A stretch of 62,925 nt of DNA, taken from contig JAJZQI010000015.1 of assembly GCA_021851875.1 (NCBI GenBank), positions 1 through 62,925 of the forward strand, written 5' to 3'. Below the pieces are notes generated by a model. That model did no database searches, was not told the DNA's origin, and was given only the letters and a program-made list of their open reading frames with translations. This DNA is from Pseudomonadota bacterium. Lineage in GTDB: Bacteria; Pseudomonadota; Gammaproteobacteria; Burkholderiales; JAJZQI01. Every line of letters starts with the position of its first letter. Position 1 is the first letter of the stretch. Of the stretch, positions 1,316 through 39,580 are shown piece by piece. A program made the position numbers and the translations under genes.

Positions 1316-3010
1316 TCAGCGGCTGATGTCAATGACGCGCATGACTTCCATCAGGCTGGTGTCGCCCTGCAGGATTCGTCGTATGCCGTCCTGCGCCAGC
1401 GGGATGAAGCTTTTTTCCCGTGCCAGATTGCGCATTTCGCGGAAGGTCGCCCGGCGCGCGATCAGTTCGTCCATGTCGCTGTCGATGCGCAGCACTTCCA
1501 TGAGCGGCAGGCGGCCTTTGTAGCCGCGGCCGTTGCACACCGGACAGCCTTTGGGCTGGTACAGCGTGACATCCTGTTGCGGCGCGAGGCCCAGCAGGTG
1601 CCGGTCGCTTTCGTCTGGTGTGTACGGCGTTTTGCAGTGACCGCATAGCGCGCGCACCAGCCGTTGGGCGATCACACCGATGACGTTGCCGGCGATGATG
1701 TCGGGCGTGACGCCCAGATCCAGCAGGCGCGGGAAGGCGCCCAGAGCGGAGTTGGTGTGCAGCGTGGTGAAGACCTGGTGGCCGGTCATGGCGGCGCGAA
1801 AGGCCATGCTGGCGGTTTCCAGATCGCGCACTTCGCCCACCAGAATGATGTCCGGATCCTGCCGCATGATCGAACGGATGCCGTTGGCAAAGTCCATCTT
1901 CAGGGCTTCGTTGACCGAGGTCTGGCGCATCAGCGTGACGGGATATTCCACCGGATCTTCCAGCGTCATGATGTTGACCGTTTCGCGGTTCAGGTGCGTC
2001 AGCATGGAATAAAGCGTGGTGGTCTTGCCGCTGCCGGTCGGGCCGGTCACGACGATGATGCCCTCGGGGCGTGCCATCATGCGTTTGACCACGCCCATCT
2101 GGGTTGCCTGCAGCTGCATCTGCTCCAGCGGAATGATGGCCTTTTCCCGATCGAGCACCCGCAGGACGATGTTTTCGCCGTAGATGGTGGGCTGGCAGGA
2201 GACGCGGAAGTCGATCGGCCGGCCATTGAGCATGAGCGAAACGCGGCCGTCCTGCGGCGCGCGCGTTTCGGCGATGTTCATGTTGGAAATCACCTTGAGT
2301 CGCACGGCGATACCCGGCCAATAGACCTTGTGCAGGCTGCGCACGTTTTCCAGTACGCCGTCGATGCGGTAGCGGATGCGCAGAAAGGCATATTCCGGCT
2401 CGAAGTGGATGTCGGACGCGCCGCGTTTGACCGCGTCGGTCATCAGCGCCCCGACCAGACGCACAACCGGCTGGGTGTACTCGCCGCTGTCGCTCTGCAG
2501 GCTCTGATAATCGATTTCACCCGTTTCGATTTCCCGCAGAATGCCGTCCACCGACAGTTCGAAGCCGTAGAACTTGTCGATGTGCTCTTCCAGCTGGGCT
2601 TCGCCGGCCAGCAGGGTCTTCAGTTCGATCTGGGCCCCCAGCGTGGCGCGCAGCTGGTCCAGCGCCAGCACGTTGAACATGTCCGAGATCGCCAGGATCA
2701 GCGTCTGCAGATCGGCGTCGTAGGCAATCGGCAGGATCTGGTTGCGCTGGGCGAAGTCCTTCGGCACGAATTTGAGCGCCTCGGCATCGGCGATCACATT
2801 GGTCAGATCAATGCTTTCCTGGCCGATGGTGCGGGCCAGAATGTCACGGATCATCGCTTCCGTGACAAAGCCCAGCCGCACCAGCTGGCGGCCGATCGGC
2901 AGGTTGCTGCGATGCTGCTCCATCAGGGCGATACGCAGCTGATCCTGCGTGATCAATCCCTGGTGAACGAGCAGATCGCCCAGTCTGAGTTTGCGTCTTT
3001 GTTCTGCCAT
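1316..3010 (-). CDS. mshE: Pilus assembly ATPase, MshE/GspE family
   Basis: Cytoplasmic hexameric ATPase (564 aa) that powers pilin polymerisation. The N-terminal T2SSE_N-like domain (about 1-150) starts with LRLGDLLVHQGLI, the region that binds c-di-GMP in Vibrio MshE. The Walker A motif GPTGSGKTTT is near residue 323. The Asp box (LEDPVEYPV), Walker B (RQDPDIILVGEVRD) and His box follow. A zinc tetracysteine motif is present as CGHC and CPVC near 457 and 490. It sits 14 bases after the MshN-like gene and 11 before mshG. Binding of c-di-GMP is plausible by family but not proven by the sequence. Confidence 0.88.
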   Translation of the reverse strand: MAEQRRKLRLGDLLVHQGLITQDQLRIALMEQHRSNLPIGRQLVRLGFVTEAMIRDILARTIGQESIDLTNVIADAEALKFVPKDFAQRNQILPIAYDADLQTLILAISDMFNVLALDQLRATLGAQIELKTLLAGEAQLEEHIDKFYGFELSVDGILREIETGEIDYQSLQSDSGEYTQPVVRLVGALMTDAVKRGASDIHFEPEYAFLRIRYRIDGVLENVRSLHKVYWPGIAVRLKVISNMNIAETRAPQDGRVSLMLNGRPIDFRVSCQPTIYGENIVLRVLDREKAIIPLEQMQLQATQMGVVKRMMARPEGIIVVTGPTGSGKTTTLYSMLTHLNRETVNIMTLEDPVEYPVTLMRQTSVNEALKMDFANGIRSIMRQDPDIILVGEVRDLETASMAFRAAMTGHQVFTTLHTNSALGAFPRLLDLGVTPDIIAGNVIGVIAQRLVRALCGHCKTPYTPDESDRHLLGLAPQQDVTLYQPKGCPVCNGRGYKGRLPLMEVLRIDSDMDELIARRATFREMRNLAREKSFIPLAQDGIRRILQGDTSLMEVMRVIDISR

Positions 3011-3024
3011 GCTGCGATCCGGCG

Positions 3025-4050
3025 CTAAGGTTGGCTTAAGGTCGCTAGGCGCGCCTTTGCCTGGTTGATGTCGAAGCCGTAGCCGTGTTGTTCTGCCAGT
3101 GTTATGGCCTGCTGGTAGTACAGCCGTGCCTGCTCGCTTTGGCCGAGATGGTCGAGGCTGACTGCCAGATTGAAGGCGTAGTCGGGGTGCTGCGGCGCGC
3201 TGCCGACGGCGGAAAAATAGGCTTCTTCGGCCGCCTGCCAGTTGCCGCTGCGGCTGTAATGATTGCCCAGGGAATAGTACAGGGCGGCGTTGCCGGGTTC
3301 GCTGGCGACCAGCTGCCGGAGCCGGGTGCCCGTTGCCGCCGGGTCGGCGGCATCAGCCAGATTGATCAGGCCGGCCTGCGCGGTCGGATTGTGCGGATCA
3401 AGCTGCAAGGCGGCGCTGTAGTAGCGCACGGCCTGGTCGGGCTGTTTGCCTTGCGCTGCAATCGCAGCCAGACCGAGCATTGCGTCGACATTGTGCGGTT
3501 GTTGCTGCAGCAGCGCCAGGTAGAGTGTTTGCGCCTGCTCAAGCTGGCCTTTCTGCCATGCGCCGTAGGCTTGTGCGGCGAGCGGGTTGATGGCGGGCGC
3601 TCTGCTGCCACGCACTATGGTTACCTGATCCGGGTCGGTAGCGTTGTCGCGGGTTTTGTCCGCAGTGCCGGTCTGCTGTGTTTGTGCCGGGGCGCTGCCG
3701 GACTTCGCTTCTGTCGCCGTCACGGTTGCCGCTTGCGTGGGCGTACCCGCTTGCGCTGTTGGCGCCAGCACCGCCGATGCAGGGGCAGCAGGTACGGGGG
3801 CCTGCGCGACGGGCTGAGACAATACAGCGGGTGGGCGTACAGCCGGCCCCCGCATGGCGAAATAGACATACGTGAAATAGCCGCAGATGAAAATCAGCGC
3901 GGCGGCGATAACCAAGCCCATTTCGCGTGACAGACCGAGCGATGCGGCCAGGTTGCCGGGAATCGCCAGCCAGTCGGCTGCTCCCCTGTCGGGTAAACCA
4001 GTCAGCGGTTTGGCCTCGGCTTTTTTCAATGCGTCGATTAGCAGGCTCAT
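3025..4050 (-). CDS. mshN: MSHA biogenesis protein MshN-like, TPR protein
   Basis: Bitopic inner-membrane protein of 341 aa. The N-terminus MSLLIDALKKAEAK is the cytoplasmic signature shared by MshN and GspB/ExeB-type proteins. One membrane helix lies near residues 43-66, followed by an Ala/Pro/Thr-rich linker to about 140. The C-terminal half is tetratricopeptide repeats (about 160-335). Such proteins bridge the inner-membrane machinery and the secretin through the periplasm. The start ATG overlaps the stop of the mshL-like gene by 4 bases. Sequence identity in this family is low, so the name is mainly from the N-terminus, topology and position. Confidence 0.75.
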   Translation of the reverse strand: MSLLIDALKKAEAKPLTGLPDRGAADWLAIPGNLAASLGLSREMGLVIAAALIFICGYFTYVYFAMRGPAVRPPAVLSQPVAQAPVPAAPASAVLAPTAQAGTPTQAATVTATEAKSGSAPAQTQQTGTADKTRDNATDPDQVTIVRGSRAPAINPLAAQAYGAWQKGQLEQAQTLYLALLQQQPHNVDAMLGLAAIAAQGKQPDQAVRYYSAALQLDPHNPTAQAGLINLADAADPAATGTRLRQLVASEPGNAALYYSLGNHYSRSGNWQAAEEAYFSAVGSAPQHPDYAFNLAVSLDHLGQSEQARLYYQQAITLAEQHGYGFDINQAKARLATLSQP

Positions 4051-30757: not shown

Positions 30758-31141
30758 TCAGCGGACCCCCAGTATACGCTGCAAATTTCCCCCGATGGCC
30801 TGCGCCATCTGCCACCATTGCCCGGCCGGACCGGGCTCAAGATTTTCTTCCATGGCCTGGTGAAACAGTTCCAGCCAGCGGGCGAACAATACCTGATTCA
30901 GCTGCATCGGTTTGTGCCGCCCGATCATGTCAAAGGGCCGGTGCGGACCCGGTCGCCCGCCCATGGCGGTCCACCAGTATTCGGTGATATGGGCCTCGTG
31001 TTCCGCCAGATCGCGCAGCTGCGCGAAATAGGGCGCCAGCAGCGGGTCGGCCAGCAGCTTGGCATAGAAATCATGCACCACGCGTGCGACGTTGTCCTTG
31101 CCTATCTGGACGCAAAGCGGGTTAAGCGTTCGTTGTGTCAT
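30758..31141 (-). CDS. Group III truncated haemoglobin
   Basis: Small (127 aa) haem protein of the 2/2 globin fold, subgroup III. The E/F-helix segment [20 protein letters not shown] carries the proximal His, and [16 protein letters not shown] is the typical B/E region with a double Trp. Family roles involve oxygen or nitric oxide handling; the substrate here is not determined. It overlaps the end of bpt by 20 bases and is probably co-transcribed with it. Confidence 0.88.
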
Positions 31142-32487: not shown

Positions 32488-33222
32488 CTAGCCGGGCGCG
32501 TTGGATTGGAAGGCCGTGCTTGCCGTGTCGCTGACGACCAGCGATGTGACCGGCTGCCAGGCCGGTTCTGCCGCGGCCAGCTGTTGCAGATGCGTCGTAA
32601 ATTCGCTGCGGGGAATCTCCCGGGCGCCGAAGCGGGCCAGGTGGGCGGTATTCATCTGGCAGTCGATCAGGCCGAAATTCCATTGCTGCAGTTGTTTGAC
32701 CAGATGGACAAAGGCGATTTTTGACGCATCGCTCCGTCTGGCGAACATGGATTCGCCGTAAAACGCCCGGCCCAGCGCCAAACCATACAGTCCTCCAGCC
32801 AGTTCGCCGTCCACCCAGGTTTCCACCGAGTGGGCGAAACCCATTGCGTGCAGCATTGAGTAGGCCTCAATCATTTCCGGCGATATCCAGGTACCGTCCT
32901 GGTCCTTGCGCGGTTCGGCGCAGGCTTGCATGACGCGGGTAAAGACCGTGTCCACGCGAATTTCATAGCCGCCCCGGCGGATGATTTTCTGCAACGAACG
33001 GTGCACATGCAGTTCATCCGGAAACAGCACCATGCGCGGGTCCGGACTCCACCACAAGATAGGTTGGCCTTCGCTGTACCAGGGAAAAATACCCTGGCGG
33101 TATGCTGCCAGCAGTCTTTGCGGCGAAAGGTCGCCGCCGACAGCCAGCAGGCCGCTCGGCTCGTCCAGCGCCGAGTCGACCGGAGGGAAGGCTGTGGAAT
33201 GGGTAAGCCACGGTAAATGCAT
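32488..33222 (-). CDS. aat: Leucyl/phenylalanyl-tRNA--protein transferase Aat
   Basis: Adds Leu or Phe from aminoacyl-tRNA to N-terminal Arg or Lys, creating an N-degron; 244 aa. Landmarks: [65 protein letters not shown] and [11 protein letters not shown]. It is on the same strand as bpt, and the pair is often adjacent in proteobacteria. Here the two small ORFs separate them. Confidence 0.95.
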
Positions 33223-33444: not shown

Positions 33445-34632
33445 ATGGATGGTGGGGTTGAAAATGCGTTTGACGGCAAAAAATTGCCGGATGCAGGCAC
33501 GTTTGCCTGGCTGGGAGACGGTGTCCGGCTTGCAGCGGCATTTGTCGCCGGAGCATGTCTGTTTCAGGCGCAGATTGTGCTGCAGATCGTTGGTGGGATT
33601 GCCTTGTTGTTCGGTATTGCGCTGCAGATCAAGAAATCGCTTTGTGATATCCGTCAACGGAATGTCCTTTTGCAGTTTGTGAGTGCGGTGGAGGCGGGCA
33701 ACCTGACCGAGCGATTGCAACCGGGTGCTTGTATGAATTACCGCTTGGCGGAGGAATTGAATATGATGGTTCGATCCTATGCGCGGTTACTCGCCAACCT
33801 GGCGAGGGCCACCAGTGAGTTGACCAATACCGCAGCGGCTGGAACCGAGAATGCGATAAATGGGGATGAGGGGGTAAAGTCGCAGCGTGAAATTACGGTG
33901 AACTCGGCCGCCACCCTGGAACAATTGTCAGTCAGTCTCGCCACGACTTCGGAGCATGCGGTCGAGGCGGCCCGGCTTGTGGATCAGACTGCACTGGCAG
34001 TCCGCCACGGAGAGGAAAATGGCCATCTCCTGGCGGGAAACATGACTCGCATACGTGCTGAGATGAGTGAAACCATGAACCGGGCCGGACAACTCGACCG
34101 GGGCTCAAATGAAATAAGCGGGATTGTGCAAATCATTGCCGGTTTGGCAGAACAAACGAATTTGCTGGCATTGAATGCCGCCATCGAGGCGGCCCGTGCG
34201 GGTGAGTTGGGGCGCGGCTTCGCTGTTGTAGCGGACGAGGTCCGCAAGCTCGCCGAACGGACCAGGGTCGCCACCGTTGATATCAAGGAATTGATCCAGA
34301 GTCTGCACCATGACGTCGGTGGCGTTCGGGGTGCCATAACCGGTACGCAGGAGGAAATTGATGCCGGTTTGCGGCAAACCAGTGCTTTGATGGAGCGACT
34401 CAATGCTGTTACGGCGTTGGCGGAGTCCGCGCAGATTGCCGTCAGGGGAATTTCTTCCGCCAGCCAGGAGCAAAGCATAGCAAGCGAGCAGCTGGCGCGC
34501 GATGTGGAGCGTGTGGCCAATTTGGCGGAACACAACGAGCACCTGGTGGAAGATAACCGTGATCTGTCAATGTACCTGGCACAAATGTCCGATCAATTGG
34601 GGCGTGCCATTCAACGATACCGTTACGAGTGA
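33445..34632 (+). CDS. Methyl-accepting chemotaxis protein without periplasmic sensor
   Basis: MCP of 395 aa. After about 20 residues, two closely spaced hydrophobic stretches (about 24-62) form a membrane hairpin with no periplasmic domain. A HAMP-like linker and the long helical signalling domain follow. The CheA/CheW-binding tip is intact ([20 protein letters not shown] then [16 protein letters not shown]). No C-terminal CheR pentapeptide is visible. Ligand sensing must come from elsewhere; the next gene, 6 bases on, encodes a NIT-like membrane protein and is a natural partner. Confidence 0.88.
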
Positions 34633-34638
34633 GGTCTT

Positions 34639-35538
34639 ATGAGTGTGCTTTTATGGGTTATTTTAAGTGTGGCTGTCGTATTGGGGTATCGGGGCTGGCA
34701 AAAAATGCGGCTCAGGGCGTTGCGTGCCAATGATGTTCGCAAAGCGCTGGCGCACTGCGGTTCTTTGATCGTACTGATAAAGAAAATGCAGCAGCACCGC
34801 GGCCTGAGTGCCGGTTGGCTTGCCGGCGAGAAATCATTTGGTAGCGATATGATGCAACGGCGGCGCGAGATTGAAAGGGTTTTCATTGAGCTGGAGAAGC
34901 TGGCGGAAGATGAGTCAAGCCAGCCCAGACCTGTGCTGCAGCATAACGAATTGCGGTTGTTGCGCTTTCACTGGCAGGAATTGATCGAACAGCTTTCCGG
35001 GCTGGATGCGTCCAAATGCATCGCGCGCCACAGTCAGCTGATTGCGCGTGTGCTGGATTGGTTGTCGGCTCTGGGTGATGCGAGAGTAACGTTGAAATTG
35101 AGCGATGCGGAAGGGGTTGAGACGGCAAAAAATTATGCCGACCGGCTGCCCCGTTTGGCCGAATATATCGGTCAGGCGCGTGCCGTGGGCAGTAGCGTCG
35201 CGGCGGCAGAAAAACTCTCTTCGGTTGATAGCGTCAGATTGCATTATCTTGTGATGCGAATCGAGTCTTTGAGCAATTTTTCCCGGTCTGAAATGGGCGG
35301 GGGGGAATGGAAAACGGCCCGGGAGGCCGTCCGAAACCTGCTGTCGACTGTTCAGACAGCGTTGATCGGTAAAGGTGGGGTATCCATCCCTGCCGGCCAG
35401 TATTTTGCGTTGGCTACCCAGGCGCTTGATGCGGTTTATGCGTGCGACCAGGCATGTGCCGTTGATTTAAGCCAACGAATTGATCGTCTTGTTTCAAAAG
35501 AGATGTTCGCCGACCATGCGAGGGCGGTCTTGGGCTAG
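34639..35538 (+). CDS. Membrane-anchored NIT (nitrate/nitrite sensing)-like protein
   Basis: Protein of 299 aa with one N-terminal membrane helix (MSVLLWVILSVAVVLGY) and an all-helical remainder. The stretch KKMQQHRGLSAGWLAGEKSF resembles the NIT domain consensus (QxERGLSAxYLA), the helical bundle that binds nitrate or nitrite in NasR and related sensors. No output domain follows. It starts 6 bases after the MCP gene with a GAGG ribosome-binding site. By topology the sensory part may be cytoplasmic or periplasmic. The NIT call rests on one motif. Confidence 0.65.
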   Translation: MSVLLWVILSVAVVLGYRGWQKMRLRALRANDVRKALAHCGSLIVLIKKMQQHRGLSAGWLAGEKSFGSDMMQRRREIERVFIELEKLAEDESSQPRPVLQHNELRLLRFHWQELIEQLSGLDASKCIARHSQLIARVLDWLSALGDARVTLKLSDAEGVETAKNYADRLPRLAEYIGQARAVGSSVAAAEKLSSVDSVRLHYLVMRIESLSNFSRSEMGGGEWKTAREAVRNLLSTVQTALIGKGGVSIPAGQYFALATQALDAVYACDQACAVDLSQRIDRLVSKEMFADHARAVLG

Positions 35539-35552
35539 CCATTGACGGCCCC

Positions 35553-37175
35553 TCAGGGGGAATATCCCGGAATCCTGCTCTCGTCCACTTCGTCGATCTG
35601 GTAGGGTTCAAGGAAGCGTTTGGCGTAATCGAGATAGACTTTCCGGCGGATAAAGACGTCGAACAGGTCGGGGTCGACATGGCGGTCTTCCTTCATGCGG
35701 CCGAGGATGGTCAGCGCTTCAGTCAGCGTCTTGCCCAGTTTGTAGGGCCGGTCACGGGCGGTCAGGGCCTCGAAAATGTCGGCAATGGCCATGATGCGCG
35801 CCTGCAAAGACATCCGGTCGCCGGTGAGGCCGCGCGGGTAGCCTTTGCCATCCATGCGCTCGTGATGGCCGCCGGCGAATTCCGGCACGTTCTTCAAATG
35901 TTTGGGCCAGGGCAGCGCTTCCAGCATATTGATGGTGGAAACGATGTGGTGGTTGATGATTTCGCGCTCTTCCGGCAGCAGTGTGCCCTTGGCGATCTTG
36001 AGGTTGGCCATCTCCGAACTGTTGAGGAAGGGTACGACATTGCCGTTCGGGTCACGCCAGATGTAGGCGCCGATCTGTTCCACCCGTGCCTGGTCTGCCG
36101 CTGTCATGAACTCGCCGCCGATATTGGCCTTGCGCAGGAATTCGCGGTCGCCATCCAGCTGTGCGAGGCGTGCGCGGTACTGTTCGTCGGCCCGTTTGAC
36201 GGTGTGTTCGTTGCCATTGGCAGCCAGTTGGGCATGCAGTTTCTGGATTTCCGCGTCGCGCTTGAGCACTTCGAAACGGGTATCCACCGACTCGATGCGG
36301 TCGAACAGCGTCTGCAATTTGGTCGATTTGTCGACGATGTGCACCGGCGTGGTGATTTTGCCGCAGTCGTGCAGCAAACCGGCGATTTTCAGTTCATAAC
36401 GATCCTTGTCGTTCATGTGAAAGTCGGCCAGCGGACCCTCATCCGTATTGTTGGTGGCCTCCGCCAGCAGCATGGTCAGTTCGGGTACGCGCGCGCAGTG
36501 GCCGCCGGTGTAGGGCGATTTTTCGTCAATCGCGGTGTTGATGAGCTTGATCAGCGACTCAAACAACACTTCCAGCTGACTGATGAGCTGGCGGTTGGTC
36601 AAGGCGATGGCGGCCTGAGAAGCAAGGGATTCGACCAGTTGCTGGTCTTCCTTGTTGAATATACGCACTTTGCCGGTGTCCGGTTCCAGTGCGTTGATCA
36701 GCTGCATCACGCCGATGATGTCGTTTTCATGGTTTTTCAGCGGCACGGTCAGGAACGATTGCGAACGGTAACCTGTGCGCTGATCGAACGCGCGCGTGCC
36801 GGTGAAATCGAAACCCTGTTCGCTGTAGGCGTCCTTGATGTTGATGGTGGTGTCGTGCAACACGGAGTAGGCCACCACCATGTTGTTGTTGGGCTCTCCC
36901 TGTTCGCTGTAGAGCGGCAGGTCGGGAAAGGGGATGGCCACGCCGGTGGTGCCGCCCATGGCGATATTGAGCGAATCGGTGCGGACGATCTCGAACTTGA
37001 GTTTGCCTTCCGGGGTGACTTTGTACAGCGTGCCGGCATCGGCCAGGGTGATGGACTTGGCGGCCAGCAGAATGGTCTCCAGCAGCCGCGGGAGGTTTTT
37101 TTCCCGCGACAGGGCAATACCGATCTTGTTGAGCTCGCTGAGCCGCCGCAACAGATTCGATGAATGCATTTCCAT
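35553..37175 (-). CDS. GAF-HD-GYP phosphodiesterase (c-di-GMP)
   Basis: Cytoplasmic protein of about 540 aa. An N-terminal GAF domain (about 25-185) with IGVMQLINALEPDTG is followed by a complete HD-GYP domain: GLLHDCGKITTP, HHERMDGKGYP and ADIFEALTARDRPYK. HD-GYP enzymes hydrolyse c-di-GMP or cGAMP. The ATG at 37175 follows a GGAGCGGGG ribosome-binding site; the longer frame overlaps the ATPase gene. It is the last gene of the six-gene signalling operon, 29 bases after the GAF-GspE gene. The GAF domain could bind a cyclic nucleotide made by the operon's own cyclase (inference). Confidence 0.9.
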   Translation of the reverse strand: MEMHSSNLLRRLSELNKIGIALSREKNLPRLLETILLAAKSITLADAGTLYKVTPEGKLKFEIVRTDSLNIAMGGTTGVAIPFPDLPLYSEQGEPNNNMVVAYSVLHDTTINIKDAYSEQGFDFTGTRAFDQRTGYRSQSFLTVPLKNHENDIIGVMQLINALEPDTGKVRIFNKEDQQLVESLASQAAIALTNRQLISQLEVLFESLIKLINTAIDEKSPYTGGHCARVPELTMLLAEATNNTDEGPLADFHMNDKDRYELKIAGLLHDCGKITTPVHIVDKSTKLQTLFDRIESVDTRFEVLKRDAEIQKLHAQLAANGNEHTVKRADEQYRARLAQLDGDREFLRKANIGGEFMTAADQARVEQIGAYIWRDPNGNVVPFLNSSEMANLKIAKGTLLPEEREIINHHIVSTINMLEALPWPKHLKNVPEFAGGHHERMDGKGYPRGLTGDRMSLQARIMAIADIFEALTARDRPYKLGKTLTEALTILGRMKEDRHVDPDLFDVFIRRKVYLDYAKRFLEPYQIDEVDESRIPGYSP

Positions 37176-37204
37176 GCCCCGCTCCTTGGCCAAGGTCCGG
37201 CCGG

Positions 37205-39580
37205 TTACTTGATGCAGACCGCGCGGACCTGATGCAAGTCGGTAATCCCCTGCACGACCTTTTCGATGCCGTCCTGTTTCAGCGTCCGCATGCCTTCTTC
37301 CAATGCAACGGCCAGCACTTCGGCCACGCGCGCCTTCTCCTGGATCAATTGTTTCACCCGATCGGTACAGACCAGCAGTTCGTGCAGGCCGACCCGGCCT
37401 TTGTAGCCGGTATTGCTGCATTCGGGGCAGCCGACCGGTTTATACAGCGTGAATTCGCCCTTGTCATTGCCGAAGTCCTTGCGCCATTCGTCCAGCACCC
37501 GCTTTTTGGCGGCCGCCGGGTCCTTTGTCCATGACGGTGTGCGCAGCAATTCCTGGCTGTATTCGCTGAGGATTTCGTCCAGTTCTTTTTGGTCCGGTGT
37601 GTAGGCTTTCTTGCATTTGCTGCACAGGCGCTTACCCAGCCGTTGAGCCAGGATGCCCAGCAGCGCGTCGGCAAAGTTGAACGGGTCCATGCCCATGTCG
37701 AGCAGGCGCACGATGCTTTCCGGCGCGCTGTTGGTGTGCAGGGTGGAAAACACCATGTGGCCGGTCAGCGAGGCTTCGATACCTGTTTCCACCGTTTCCG
37801 CATCGCGCATCTCGCCCACCATCACCACATCCGGGTCGGCGCGCAGGAAAGCGCGCATGGCGATGGCGAAAGTGAAGCCGGTTTTGGGATTGACCTGGAC
37901 CTGCCGCAGGCCTTTCTGGGTGATTTCCACCGGGTCTTCCGCCGTCCATATTTTGGTATCGGAGGTGTTGATGAAGCCCAGTACCGAGTGCAGGGTGGTG
38001 GTTTTGCCTGAGCCGGTGGGGCCGCAGACGAGGAACAGGCCGTAGGGTTTGGTGACCAGCTCCTTGGTATGGGCGAGATTGCGTTTGGACAGGCCCAGCT
38101 TGTCGATGGGAATCGGCTCGCCGGCGGCGAGAATGCGCATGACCACATCTTCCAGCCCGCCTGCGGTGGGCAGGGTCGCCACGCGCAGCTCGATGTTGAG
38201 CGGGCCGAATTTCTTGAACTGGATTTTGCCGTCCTGCGGTTTGCGCTTTTCCGCGATGTCCAGGTCGCACATGATCTTGATGCGGGCCACCAGCGCATTA
38301 CGCAGGTGTGCCGGCAGTTCGATATACGGCGCCAGCGAACCGTCCCGGCGAAAGCGGATGAGGGTCTTGTTTTTGCCGGCGCCCGGCTCGATGTGAATGT
38401 CGGATGCGCCCTGTTTGTAGGCATCGATGATGATTTTGTTGACCAGCTGTACCAGCTCGTTATCCTGCGCGGCGGAAATGTCCTCCGCCACCAGCCCCGC
38501 TTCCTCCCCTTCTTCTTCCAGGGCGGAAAGCATTTCGCTGATCGAGCCGGTATCCGATTCAATGCCGTAAAACAGGTCGAGCGTCTGTTTGAATTCCTGT
38601 TCGCTGCAAACGTGGTAAACGATTTTCGATTTGGGGAAAATCTGCTGCGCGGTCCGCGTGCCTTTGACATTTTCCGGGTCCATGGCAACCACGATCAACC
38701 CCTCGGACAAGTCGTCGAGCGGAATCCAGCCTTGGCTTTCAAGATAGTCCCGTTTCAGGTTCTTGAGCAATTCGGTCGGTTTGATGCGATTCGCGTTGAA
38801 CGGCTCATAGGCTACACCGTAAAAAGTACCCAGGGCAGCGCCGATGGACGCCTGGGAAATCTGAAACTCCTCGCGCAGAATGTCTTCCAGATTGCGGGAT
38901 TTTTTGCGGGCCGAGCGTACGGCCAGCACCAGCTCGTCGGGCGACAGCAGACCTTGCGTGATCAAGTCGTCGTACTTGGTCCTGACTGTCTGTTGCCCGG
39001 GCAGGGACGTTGTGCCGCCCTGCCGCTGGCTGAAGGCGATCGCCAATGTCTTGGCCAGCTCCATAACGCCTTCGGTGGCAATGTCCTTGAACGGCAGGCC
39101 CGACAGCGTGTTGATCAGCTGGATGACGCCGATCGTGCCGTCATTGTCGTCGACGATCGGGGCAACAAGCATTTGCCTGGTGCGATAACCGGTGCGCTGA
39201 TCCACCTCTTTTAAAAAGCGCATTTCCGGCGTGTAGCTTTTCAGCTCGGCCTCATCGTACACATCCTTGATGTTGAGCAGCCGCTTGGTCATTGCGCAGT
39301 AGCCGGCGATGCTCTGCGGACTGATCGGCAGCTTCAGGTCGGTGAAGTTTTCCAGGCCGGTCTTGATCTTGGTGACGACCCATTTGTGGTCATCCGAAAT
39401 GGTGTAGAGAGTGATGCGGTCGGCCTCGAACAGCACGCGGATTTCGCGCGCCACCTCCAGCATGATTTCGTCGATGTTATGGGCAGCGTGCACCCGATTG
39501 GCGACTTCCTGCAATTTTTTGCTGAAAGTCAGTTTGTCGCTGAGTTCGCTGATTTGGGAGTTGTTGGGATTGGTCGTCAT
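37205..39580 (-). CDS. GspE/PilB-type ATPase with N-terminal GAF domain
   Basis: Secretion-type ATPase of 791 aa. An N-terminal GAF domain (about 20-175, IGVIQLINTLSG) precedes a T2SSE_N domain (about 200-340) and a complete ATPase core. Walker A GPTGSGKTTT is near residue 523, followed by WTAEDPVEI, RADPDVVMVGEMRD and SLTGHMVFSTLHTNSA. Zinc cysteines CSKC and CPEC are near 655 and 717. No pilin, platform or secretin gene is adjacent. It lies between the FecR and HD-GYP genes in a tight operon, which suggests a ligand-gated assembly motor. It may serve a pilus encoded elsewhere, such as the msh block. Confidence 0.9.
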   Translation of the reverse strand: MTTNPNNSQISELSDKLTFSKKLQEVANRVHAAHNIDEIMLEVAREIRVLFEADRITLYTISDDHKWVVTKIKTGLENFTDLKLPISPQSIAGYCAMTKRLLNIKDVYDEAELKSYTPEMRFLKEVDQRTGYRTRQMLVAPIVDDNDGTIGVIQLINTLSGLPFKDIATEGVMELAKTLAIAFSQRQGGTTSLPGQQTVRTKYDDLITQGLLSPDELVLAVRSARKKSRNLEDILREEFQISQASIGAALGTFYGVAYEPFNANRIKPTELLKNLKRDYLESQGWIPLDDLSEGLIVVAMDPENVKGTRTAQQIFPKSKIVYHVCSEQEFKQTLDLFYGIESDTGSISEMLSALEEEGEEAGLVAEDISAAQDNELVQLVNKIIIDAYKQGASDIHIEPGAGKNKTLIRFRRDGSLAPYIELPAHLRNALVARIKIMCDLDIAEKRKPQDGKIQFKKFGPLNIELRVATLPTAGGLEDVVMRILAAGEPIPIDKLGLSKRNLAHTKELVTKPYGLFLVCGPTGSGKTTTLHSVLGFINTSDTKIWTAEDPVEITQKGLRQVQVNPKTGFTFAIAMRAFLRADPDVVMVGEMRDAETVETGIEASLTGHMVFSTLHTNSAPESIVRLLDMGMDPFNFADALLGILAQRLGKRLCSKCKKAYTPDQKELDEILSEYSQELLRTPSWTKDPAAAKKRVLDEWRKDFGNDKGEFTLYKPVGCPECSNTGYKGRVGLHELLVCTDRVKQLIQEKARVAEVLAVALEEGMRTLKQDGIEKVVQGITDLHQVRAVCIK

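Follow-up and report, generated by a model that had tools for sequence, protein, structure and literature searches.

The window, by which we mean the whole stretch of 62,925 nucleotides analysed here, harbours the gene of an MCP and, on the same strand, that of a protein with a NIT domain. Both were found where the sequence-only reading had placed them, and the spacer from the stop of the first to the start of the second comprises 6 bases. The features of the locus are the following.

33445..34632, plus strand: LBD-less MCP, 395 aa, with a membrane hairpin at about aa 21-62, a HAMP-like region at about aa 63-120 and then the signalling domain
33505..33630, plus strand: the two MCP membrane helices (helices 21-40 and 44-83 in the model, the membrane portion extending to about aa 62)
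34054..34524, plus strand: MCPsignal domain, aa 204-360, according to Pfam
34639..35538, plus strand: standalone NIT protein, 299 aa, with an N-terminal membrane helix followed by a double four-helix bundle
34639..34692, plus strand: membrane helix of the NIT protein, aa 1-18, predicted to be N-out/C-in
34789..34800, plus strand: QxxR motif, Q51-R54, in helix 1, one half of the putative nitrate site
35170..35181, plus strand: GxxR motif, G178-R181, in helix 5, the other half of the putative nitrate site
32488-33222, minus strand: leucyl/phenylalanyl-tRNA-protein transferase gene, 5' of the MCP gene and divergent
35553-37421, minus strand: GAF-HD-GYP gene, convergent, lying 14 bases past the NIT stop

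A promoter scan yielded no promoters, and the four terminator-like sites are within the spread of shuffled sequence (mean 2.4, sd 1.8). The GAF-HD-GYP gene adjoins the gene of a type II/IV secretion ATPase that has MshEN and, at its N terminus, a GAF domain (window 37205-39580); elsewhere in the window, a small bacterial globin gene (30758-31141) adjoins an arginyl-tRNA-protein transferase gene. The host genome of 2.68 Mb contains a single match to PF08376, which is the NIT protein of the window, together with 15 MCP-domain matches and two CheA-type matches. That the host has flagella is suggested by a single FliF/YscJ match, which lies in a frame of 557 aa. NirB scores above its cut-off; a NasA-like reductase carrying a Fer2_BFD domain scores under the NCBIfam cut-offs.

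The MCP had been described as a membrane hairpin plus a signalling domain, devoid of a sensor. Pfam and the structure model bear this out. At E 0.01, MCPsignal is the sole Pfam family detected (140.2 bits versus a cut-off of 34.6). The model (pLDDT 88.7, pTM 0.50, residues 1-20 of low confidence) displays helices 21-40 and 44-83 joined by a three-residue turn, which leaves no room for a periplasmic domain; a connector and a single helical run from 99 to 394 follow. In an alignment of the window protein with 52 of 58 references, MCPsignal is present in all 53 members, and no known LBD is among the Pfam families found. HAMP, a domain expected of the MCP in a receptor of the CetA/CetB type, is recognised by Pfam in four of the 53, the window protein not being one of them; the model of the window protein shows a HAMP-like arrangement of helix, connector and helix at about aa 63-120. 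By hydropathy, 79 untruncated MCP partners have two membrane helices in 52 cases, one in 18, none in 6 and three in 3, with a cut-off that in the window MCP caught the second membrane helix only. Where at least two helices were detected, the loop joining the last two has a median length of 10 residues.

The 299-aa protein was said to consist of one membrane helix and a NIT-type helical bundle, and this also proved correct. NIT is its sole Pfam family at E 0.01 (residues 46-274, 45.2 bits versus a cut-off of 24.9). The NIT-type motif QQHRGLSAGWLAGE corresponds to residues 51-64, and Pfam NIT matches 55 of the 57 sequences aligned, i.e., the window protein and 56 of 62 references. Fed with these 57 sequences, AlphaFold2 produced a model of eight helices (pLDDT 95.7), the first of which, residues 2-61, is continuous with the membrane segment. 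Comparison of the predicted structure with the PDB by Foldseek placed NasR (4akk) on top with an E of 1.8e-5, the sole entry with E < 0.001. VIA-align of the model with 4akk gave a Z of 25.3 and an rmsd of 4.2 over 267 residues, the runner-up having a Z of 12.2. A fold unrelated to the NIT bundle is thus no issue, since the predicted fold is that of NIT. A PDB sequence search with the window protein and searches with profiles of 10 and 57 members did not reach NasR; among the PDB searches with this protein, it was found through fold comparison alone.

Are the two genes neighbours by chance? In a draw of 399 genomes from the order, the NIT protein was matched in 69, with 12 matches in frames shorter than 400 aa. 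The window and nine others of these 12 have an LBD-less MCP directly upstream on the same strand; of the remaining two, L008 lies at a contig start and L031 is a fused gene that a frame change appears to have broken. A draw of 369 genomes from the class, with matches taken at E 1e-10, added nine pairs (L113, L114, L116, L117, L119, L121, L122, L124 and L128), two of them in open frames longer than 500 aa; of the matches in longer frames, those with a returned locus were covered, so that further pairs may exist. In the same draw, a NIT gene without MCP was seen in L143, L144 and L145, L142 and L146 resemble fused genes that have been broken, and L147 stops at the contig edge. Among 398 genomes drawn from the phylum, five of the six standalone NITs besides that of the window are paired with an MCP. 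In the sixth, L186, a membrane helix at the N terminus is not obvious, Pfam finds no match, and no MCP adjoins it. Outside the class, the sole short frame of this draw (G866, L192) looks like a broken gene of the PAS-NIT-MCP type; the other matches there are in frames longer than 500 aa, some of which were opened.

The named loci tell the same story. In 66 of the best 80 of 299, a co-directional MCP ORF precedes the NIT gene, a count that includes the short ORFs of L092 (303 aa) and L102 (143 aa) and a few cut by contig ends. Of the 67 NIT ORFs in these 66 loci, 58 lie within 60 bases of the MCP ORF. Thirteen of the best 80 of 299 lack an upstream MCP. Five of these (L033, L049, L070, L079 and L088) are situated at a contig edge or within 360 bases of one, and eight (L059, L073, L074, L076, L078, L091, L097 and L099) have ample upstream sequence. 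A single locus among the best 80 of 299, L082 from Bacillota, is a fused NIT-MCP. Homologues of the two genes thus do co-occur, with real exceptions. The pair is common to many beta- and gammaproteobacteria; its hosts include Dechloromonas, Azonexus, Methyloversatilis, Thauera and Azoarcus, and also Zobellella, Marinobacter, Shewanella, Alteromonas and Cellvibrio. In L090 (3920-5738), two NIT genes stand in tandem behind a single MCP. A tblastn search of the PLSDB plasmids at E 1e-5 detected no relatives. In the scan of genome contigs, a single sequence confirmed no relative, whereas a profile did.

For the comparisons that follow, the duplicates L001, L112 and L004 were removed, which left 85 split NITs, 40 fused NITs and 15 standalone NITs without a seen MCP. 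L002 is the window; the near-identical L005/L061 and L010/L095 were kept among the 85, and L008/L079 among the 15.

The Pfam score, the fold match and the conserved pairing together make a chance resemblance or adjacency very unlikely. For the window, chance neighbourhood is ruled out by a pairing conserved across many lineages. One might still think of a fused NIT-MCP gene that fell apart. Fused genes apparently broken through frame changes do exist (L031, L142, L146 and L192), but the order in the window, MCP before NIT, is the reverse of the domain order in fused receptors, and the MCP has a hairpin of its own; the window pair consists of two ORFs, each with its own membrane segment. In a tree of NIT domains with 135 rows, a branch with an SH-aLRT of 98 has on one side every one of the 39 fused rows, together with the broken fused L031. 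All other standalone NITs are on the opposite side, and the label "fused" needs two changes over the 135 rows. The tree, from which L005, L061, L079, L010 and L138 were omitted, was made by a quick method and has many weak inner branches; the standalone side is a clade only under some roots. Conserved pairing and separation in this tree rule out a broken fused gene for the window. Chance and breakage are, taken together, hardly credible explanations.

The two families also appear to have travelled together. For 76 pairs, NIT and MCP distances correlate with an r of 0.933, the largest value of 1000 permutations being 0.181. Nearest neighbours in the NIT and MCP sets agree for 45 of the 76 pairs, and the three loci nearest to the window are L032, L034 and L038 in both. 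The correlation indicates co-inheritance, not contact; matched trees also result from shared descent. The MCP tree is not relied on, because just 13 fused rows passed its 180-residue filter, several long branches met and the split label needs three changes. Overall, the MCP and the NIT protein are likely to make up one chemoreceptor of two chains.

On which side of the membrane is the sensor? The positive-inside rule states that the flank of a membrane helix that is rich in lysine and arginine (K/R) faces the cytoplasm. Immediately past the membrane helix of the window NIT protein, we find the K/R-rich stretch GWQKMRLRALR. Scored with HMM anchoring, 83 of 84 split NITs (of 85) have more K/R after the helix than before it, and one shows the opposite. 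The mean number of K/R in the split NITs is 4.65 in the 15 residues after the helix, a count independent of ORF starts, and 0.06 just before it, a count that is lowered because the stretch before the helix was cut at the last Met in standalone proteins; some start codons are uncertain. Of 36 scored fused NITs (of 40), only two have more after than before, 27 have more before than after and seven are ties; the means are 3.06 before and 1.97 after. Where no MCP was seen beside a standalone NIT, ten of 15 could be scored: eight have more after, and two are ties. An earlier, motif-anchored scoring, in which some positions were mis-set, pointed in the same direction for the split NITs (77 of 85 scored, all 77 with more after than before); for the fused ones, 32 of 40 were scored, seven with more after and 16 with more before. 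The inversion of the charge pattern between split and fused NITs is new here. Taken with the positive-inside rule, it predicts a cytoplasmic location for the split NITs and a periplasmic one for the majority of the fused. The split NIT sensor therefore probably faces the cytoplasm like NasR, as judged from charges. One could imagine instead that the NIT domain is periplasmic and acts via the MCP hairpin as in fused receptors. The hairpin could indeed take a transmembrane signal, and the 27 of 36 scored fused relatives provide a precedent for the periplasmic charge pattern; with 83 of 84 split NITs having more K/R after the helix and almost none before, this arrangement is very improbable.

The nature of the ligand is a more delicate question. 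The nitrate site of sensors of the NarX/NarQ type is described as GxxR, conserved in nitrate chemoreceptors; NasR has both arginines, with a glutamine replacing one glycine (PMC8199190). E175 and R176 of NasR have been placed in a predicted pocket (PMC7496416). By a constant offset, R181 of the window protein would correspond to NasR R176, and an alanine to E175. R54 and R181, the putative nitrate-site arginines, are present in all 85 split NITs, that of the window included. They are, however, nearly as conserved in fused NITs (R54 in 38 and R181 in 39 of 40) and, for this reason, do not by themselves predict nitrate. A QxxR motif of helix 1 combined with a GxxR motif of helix 5 occurs in 77 of 85 split NITs and in 19 of 40 fused ones. 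It is the asymmetric pattern of NasR, as PMC8199190 describes it. From the conserved residues and a few gene neighbourhoods, it is somewhat more likely than not that the ligand of the split NITs is nitrate or nitrite.

The fused receptors recommend caution. According to the account in PMC6381276, binding of nitrate or nitrite by the fused NIT domain of PA4520 was not seen, and nitrate taxis was unaffected in a PA4520 mutant. The same source reports that P. putida, with a NIT chemoreceptor, had no nitrate taxis and that P. atrosepticum, which lacks McpN but has a NIT receptor, displayed it. Some NIT domains are listed without known ligand (PMC13343842). It is thus possible, if rather unlikely, that the pair is the same two-protein receptor with the same topology, yet responds to another anion or a metabolite. 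The behaviour of PA4520, the orphan NIT domains and the retention of both arginines in fused NITs would fit; the NasR-like QxxR and GxxR in 77 of 85 split NITs, the predicted cytoplasmic placement, as in NasR, and the nitrate-type ABC transporter, ANTAR or nirB neighbours of some relatives speak for nitrate or nitrite.

These neighbours merit a closer look. An NMT1-like binding protein and a nitrate-type permease are encoded near the NIT gene in five of the best 80 of 299 named loci (L078, L091, L099, L101 and L106), of which L101 and L106 alone have an MCP. As a nitrate ABC transporter component, the ATPase of L099 scores above the NCBIfam cut-off; the permease of L078 scores best with nitrate transporters, under the cut-off. 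The binding proteins get no NCBIfam name, and calling them "NrtA" is therefore our own reading. L078 also encodes a lone PilJ-domain protein (Pfam PilJ; 2520-3356) with two N-box-like stretches; its gene is on the opposite strand and is flanked by an ANTAR gene and the gene of the NIT protein. In L144 (2634-5796), which has no MCP, a standalone NIT with an N-terminal hydrophobic stretch overlaps the gene of an ANTAR response regulator, behind which lies that of an NMT1-like binding protein (NrtA as read here); the arrangement looks like NasR split into two chains. In L145 (2-3382), a nirB-type nitrite reductase gene that scores above cut-off lies near that of a standalone NIT of 304 aa, in which a membrane helix is not obvious.

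Another frequent neighbour is a gene of the PAS-PAS-GGDEF-EAL type: in 30 of the best 80 of 299 named loci (e.g., L042:1438-3600) one follows the NIT gene in the same orientation. It was called at 300 bits or more, with a start from 858 bases before to 210 bases after the NIT stop; ORF starts were set mechanically and two of the 30 were scanned with Pfam. Most of these loci are Rhodocyclales-like; Zobellella (L066, L067) is also represented, as is a Moraxellaceae MAG (L052), and 25 of the 30 are also paired with an MCP. Much weaker matches (55 bits) lie behind the NIT gene in L101 and L106. In L070, with 359 bases upstream, and in L074 the gene stands behind the NIT gene, and no MCP was detected. 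Standalone NITs are not confined to MCP partners. They could even be general input subunits with a c-di-GMP enzyme or an ANTAR regulator as main target, the MCP being one partner or a mere neighbour. The 30 co-directional genes, L070, L074 and L144 lend themselves to this idea. Yet no partner is as common as the MCP (66 of the best 80 of 299), the PAS-PAS-GGDEF-EAL-type gene is missing at 300 bits from the other 50 of the best 80 of 299 and from the window, and the window has the convergent HD-GYP gene in that place. We consider the idea unlikely.

What remains, with a probability of roughly 0.55, is a receptor built like CetA/CetB, in which a NIT protein replaces the PAS protein, is anchored N-out/C-in and reads cytosolic nitrate or nitrite. 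What computation supports is the NIT fold, the architecture of the two proteins, their conserved pairing, the separation from the fused receptors, the charge pattern and the conserved arginines. From this we infer the complex, its ligand, the route of coupling and the behaviour of the pair to be as follows. A single N-out/C-in helix would anchor the NIT protein and keep its bundle in the cytoplasm beside the membrane. Nitrate, perhaps nitrite, would be held in a cleft by R54 and R181, as is thought for NasR. Binding might shift the bundle or the anchor helix, and the shift could reach the MCP by helix-helix contact with the membrane hairpin or by contact with the HAMP-like region. CheA activity and swimming would change in response, and the receptor would report intracellular, not periplasmic, nitrate or nitrite. 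Some observations do not fit smoothly: among the best 80 of 299 named loci, three of the five with nitrate-type transporter genes belong to the eight MCP-less ones with ample upstream sequence; the charge pattern of one split NIT is reversed; and Pfam sees HAMP in only four of 53 MCPs. The sequence-only reading had proposed a two-protein receptor for nitrate or nitrite taxis. Its in trans part stands by virtue of NIT fold, pairing, NIT tree and matched trees; its ligand is a matter of conserved residues and neighbours, and PA4520 is reported to bind neither anion.

A wider reading is tentative: the standalone NITs may be one family, whose members sense nitrate in the cytoplasm while anchored in the membrane and signal in trans, mostly to LBD-less MCPs and in some lineages to PAS-GGDEF-EAL or ANTAR proteins. 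With the anchor flipped relative to fused receptors, the sensor would be inside; swimming and, in some species, c-di-GMP would therefore follow internal nitrate.

In a literature search at the level of titles and opening lines of abstracts, no description of a split NIT-MCP pair was found; an earlier mention is possible. Nitrate taxis has so far been ascribed to the periplasmic receptor McpN or to energy taxis (PMC6381276, as far as this source goes). If our reading is true, a conserved receptor of two proteins that senses internally through NIT would add a third route, bipartite receptors would extend beyond PAS, and in many beta- and gammaproteobacteria the LBD-less MCPs would gain a testable partner. 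As the NIT domain seems to be turned outward in one group and inward in the other, nature appears to have performed an experiment in sensor topology.

Comparison with known systems reveals a mosaic. With NasR, the NIT-ANTAR antiterminator of Klebsiella oxytoca (PDB 4akk), the NIT protein shares the fold, the predicted cytoplasmic placement and the paired arginines. Unlike the split NITs, NasR is fused to its ANTAR output and acts on RNA; it is not known to have a membrane anchor. Sensory rhodopsin and Htr provide a precedent for a separate membrane sensor that signals to a two-helix transducer of the MCP type, the sensor being a seven-helix light sensor. The fused NIT-MCPs, PA4520 and the fused loci, combine the same modules but in one chain, with the NIT domain behind the first membrane helix and mostly predicted to be periplasmic; they are on the opposite side of the NIT tree, and PA4520 was reported not to bind nitrate (PMC6381276). 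McpN of Pseudomonas aeruginosa mediates nitrate taxis, the role proposed for the pair, yet is described as a single chain with a periplasmic PilJ domain (PMC6381276). Close parallels are CetA/CetB, the bipartite energy-taxis receptor of Campylobacter jejuni (PMC2628428), and the related CetBA2 of Magnetospirillum gryphiswaldense (PMC12442639). As portrayed there, they share with our pair the adjacent genes, the LBD-less MCP with a two-helix membrane hairpin and the separate sensor protein. The CetB sensor is on the cytoplasmic side, where charges alone predict the NIT domain to be; CetB, however, is a peripheral PAS protein with no membrane helix, while here the sensor is a NIT domain with its own membrane anchor.
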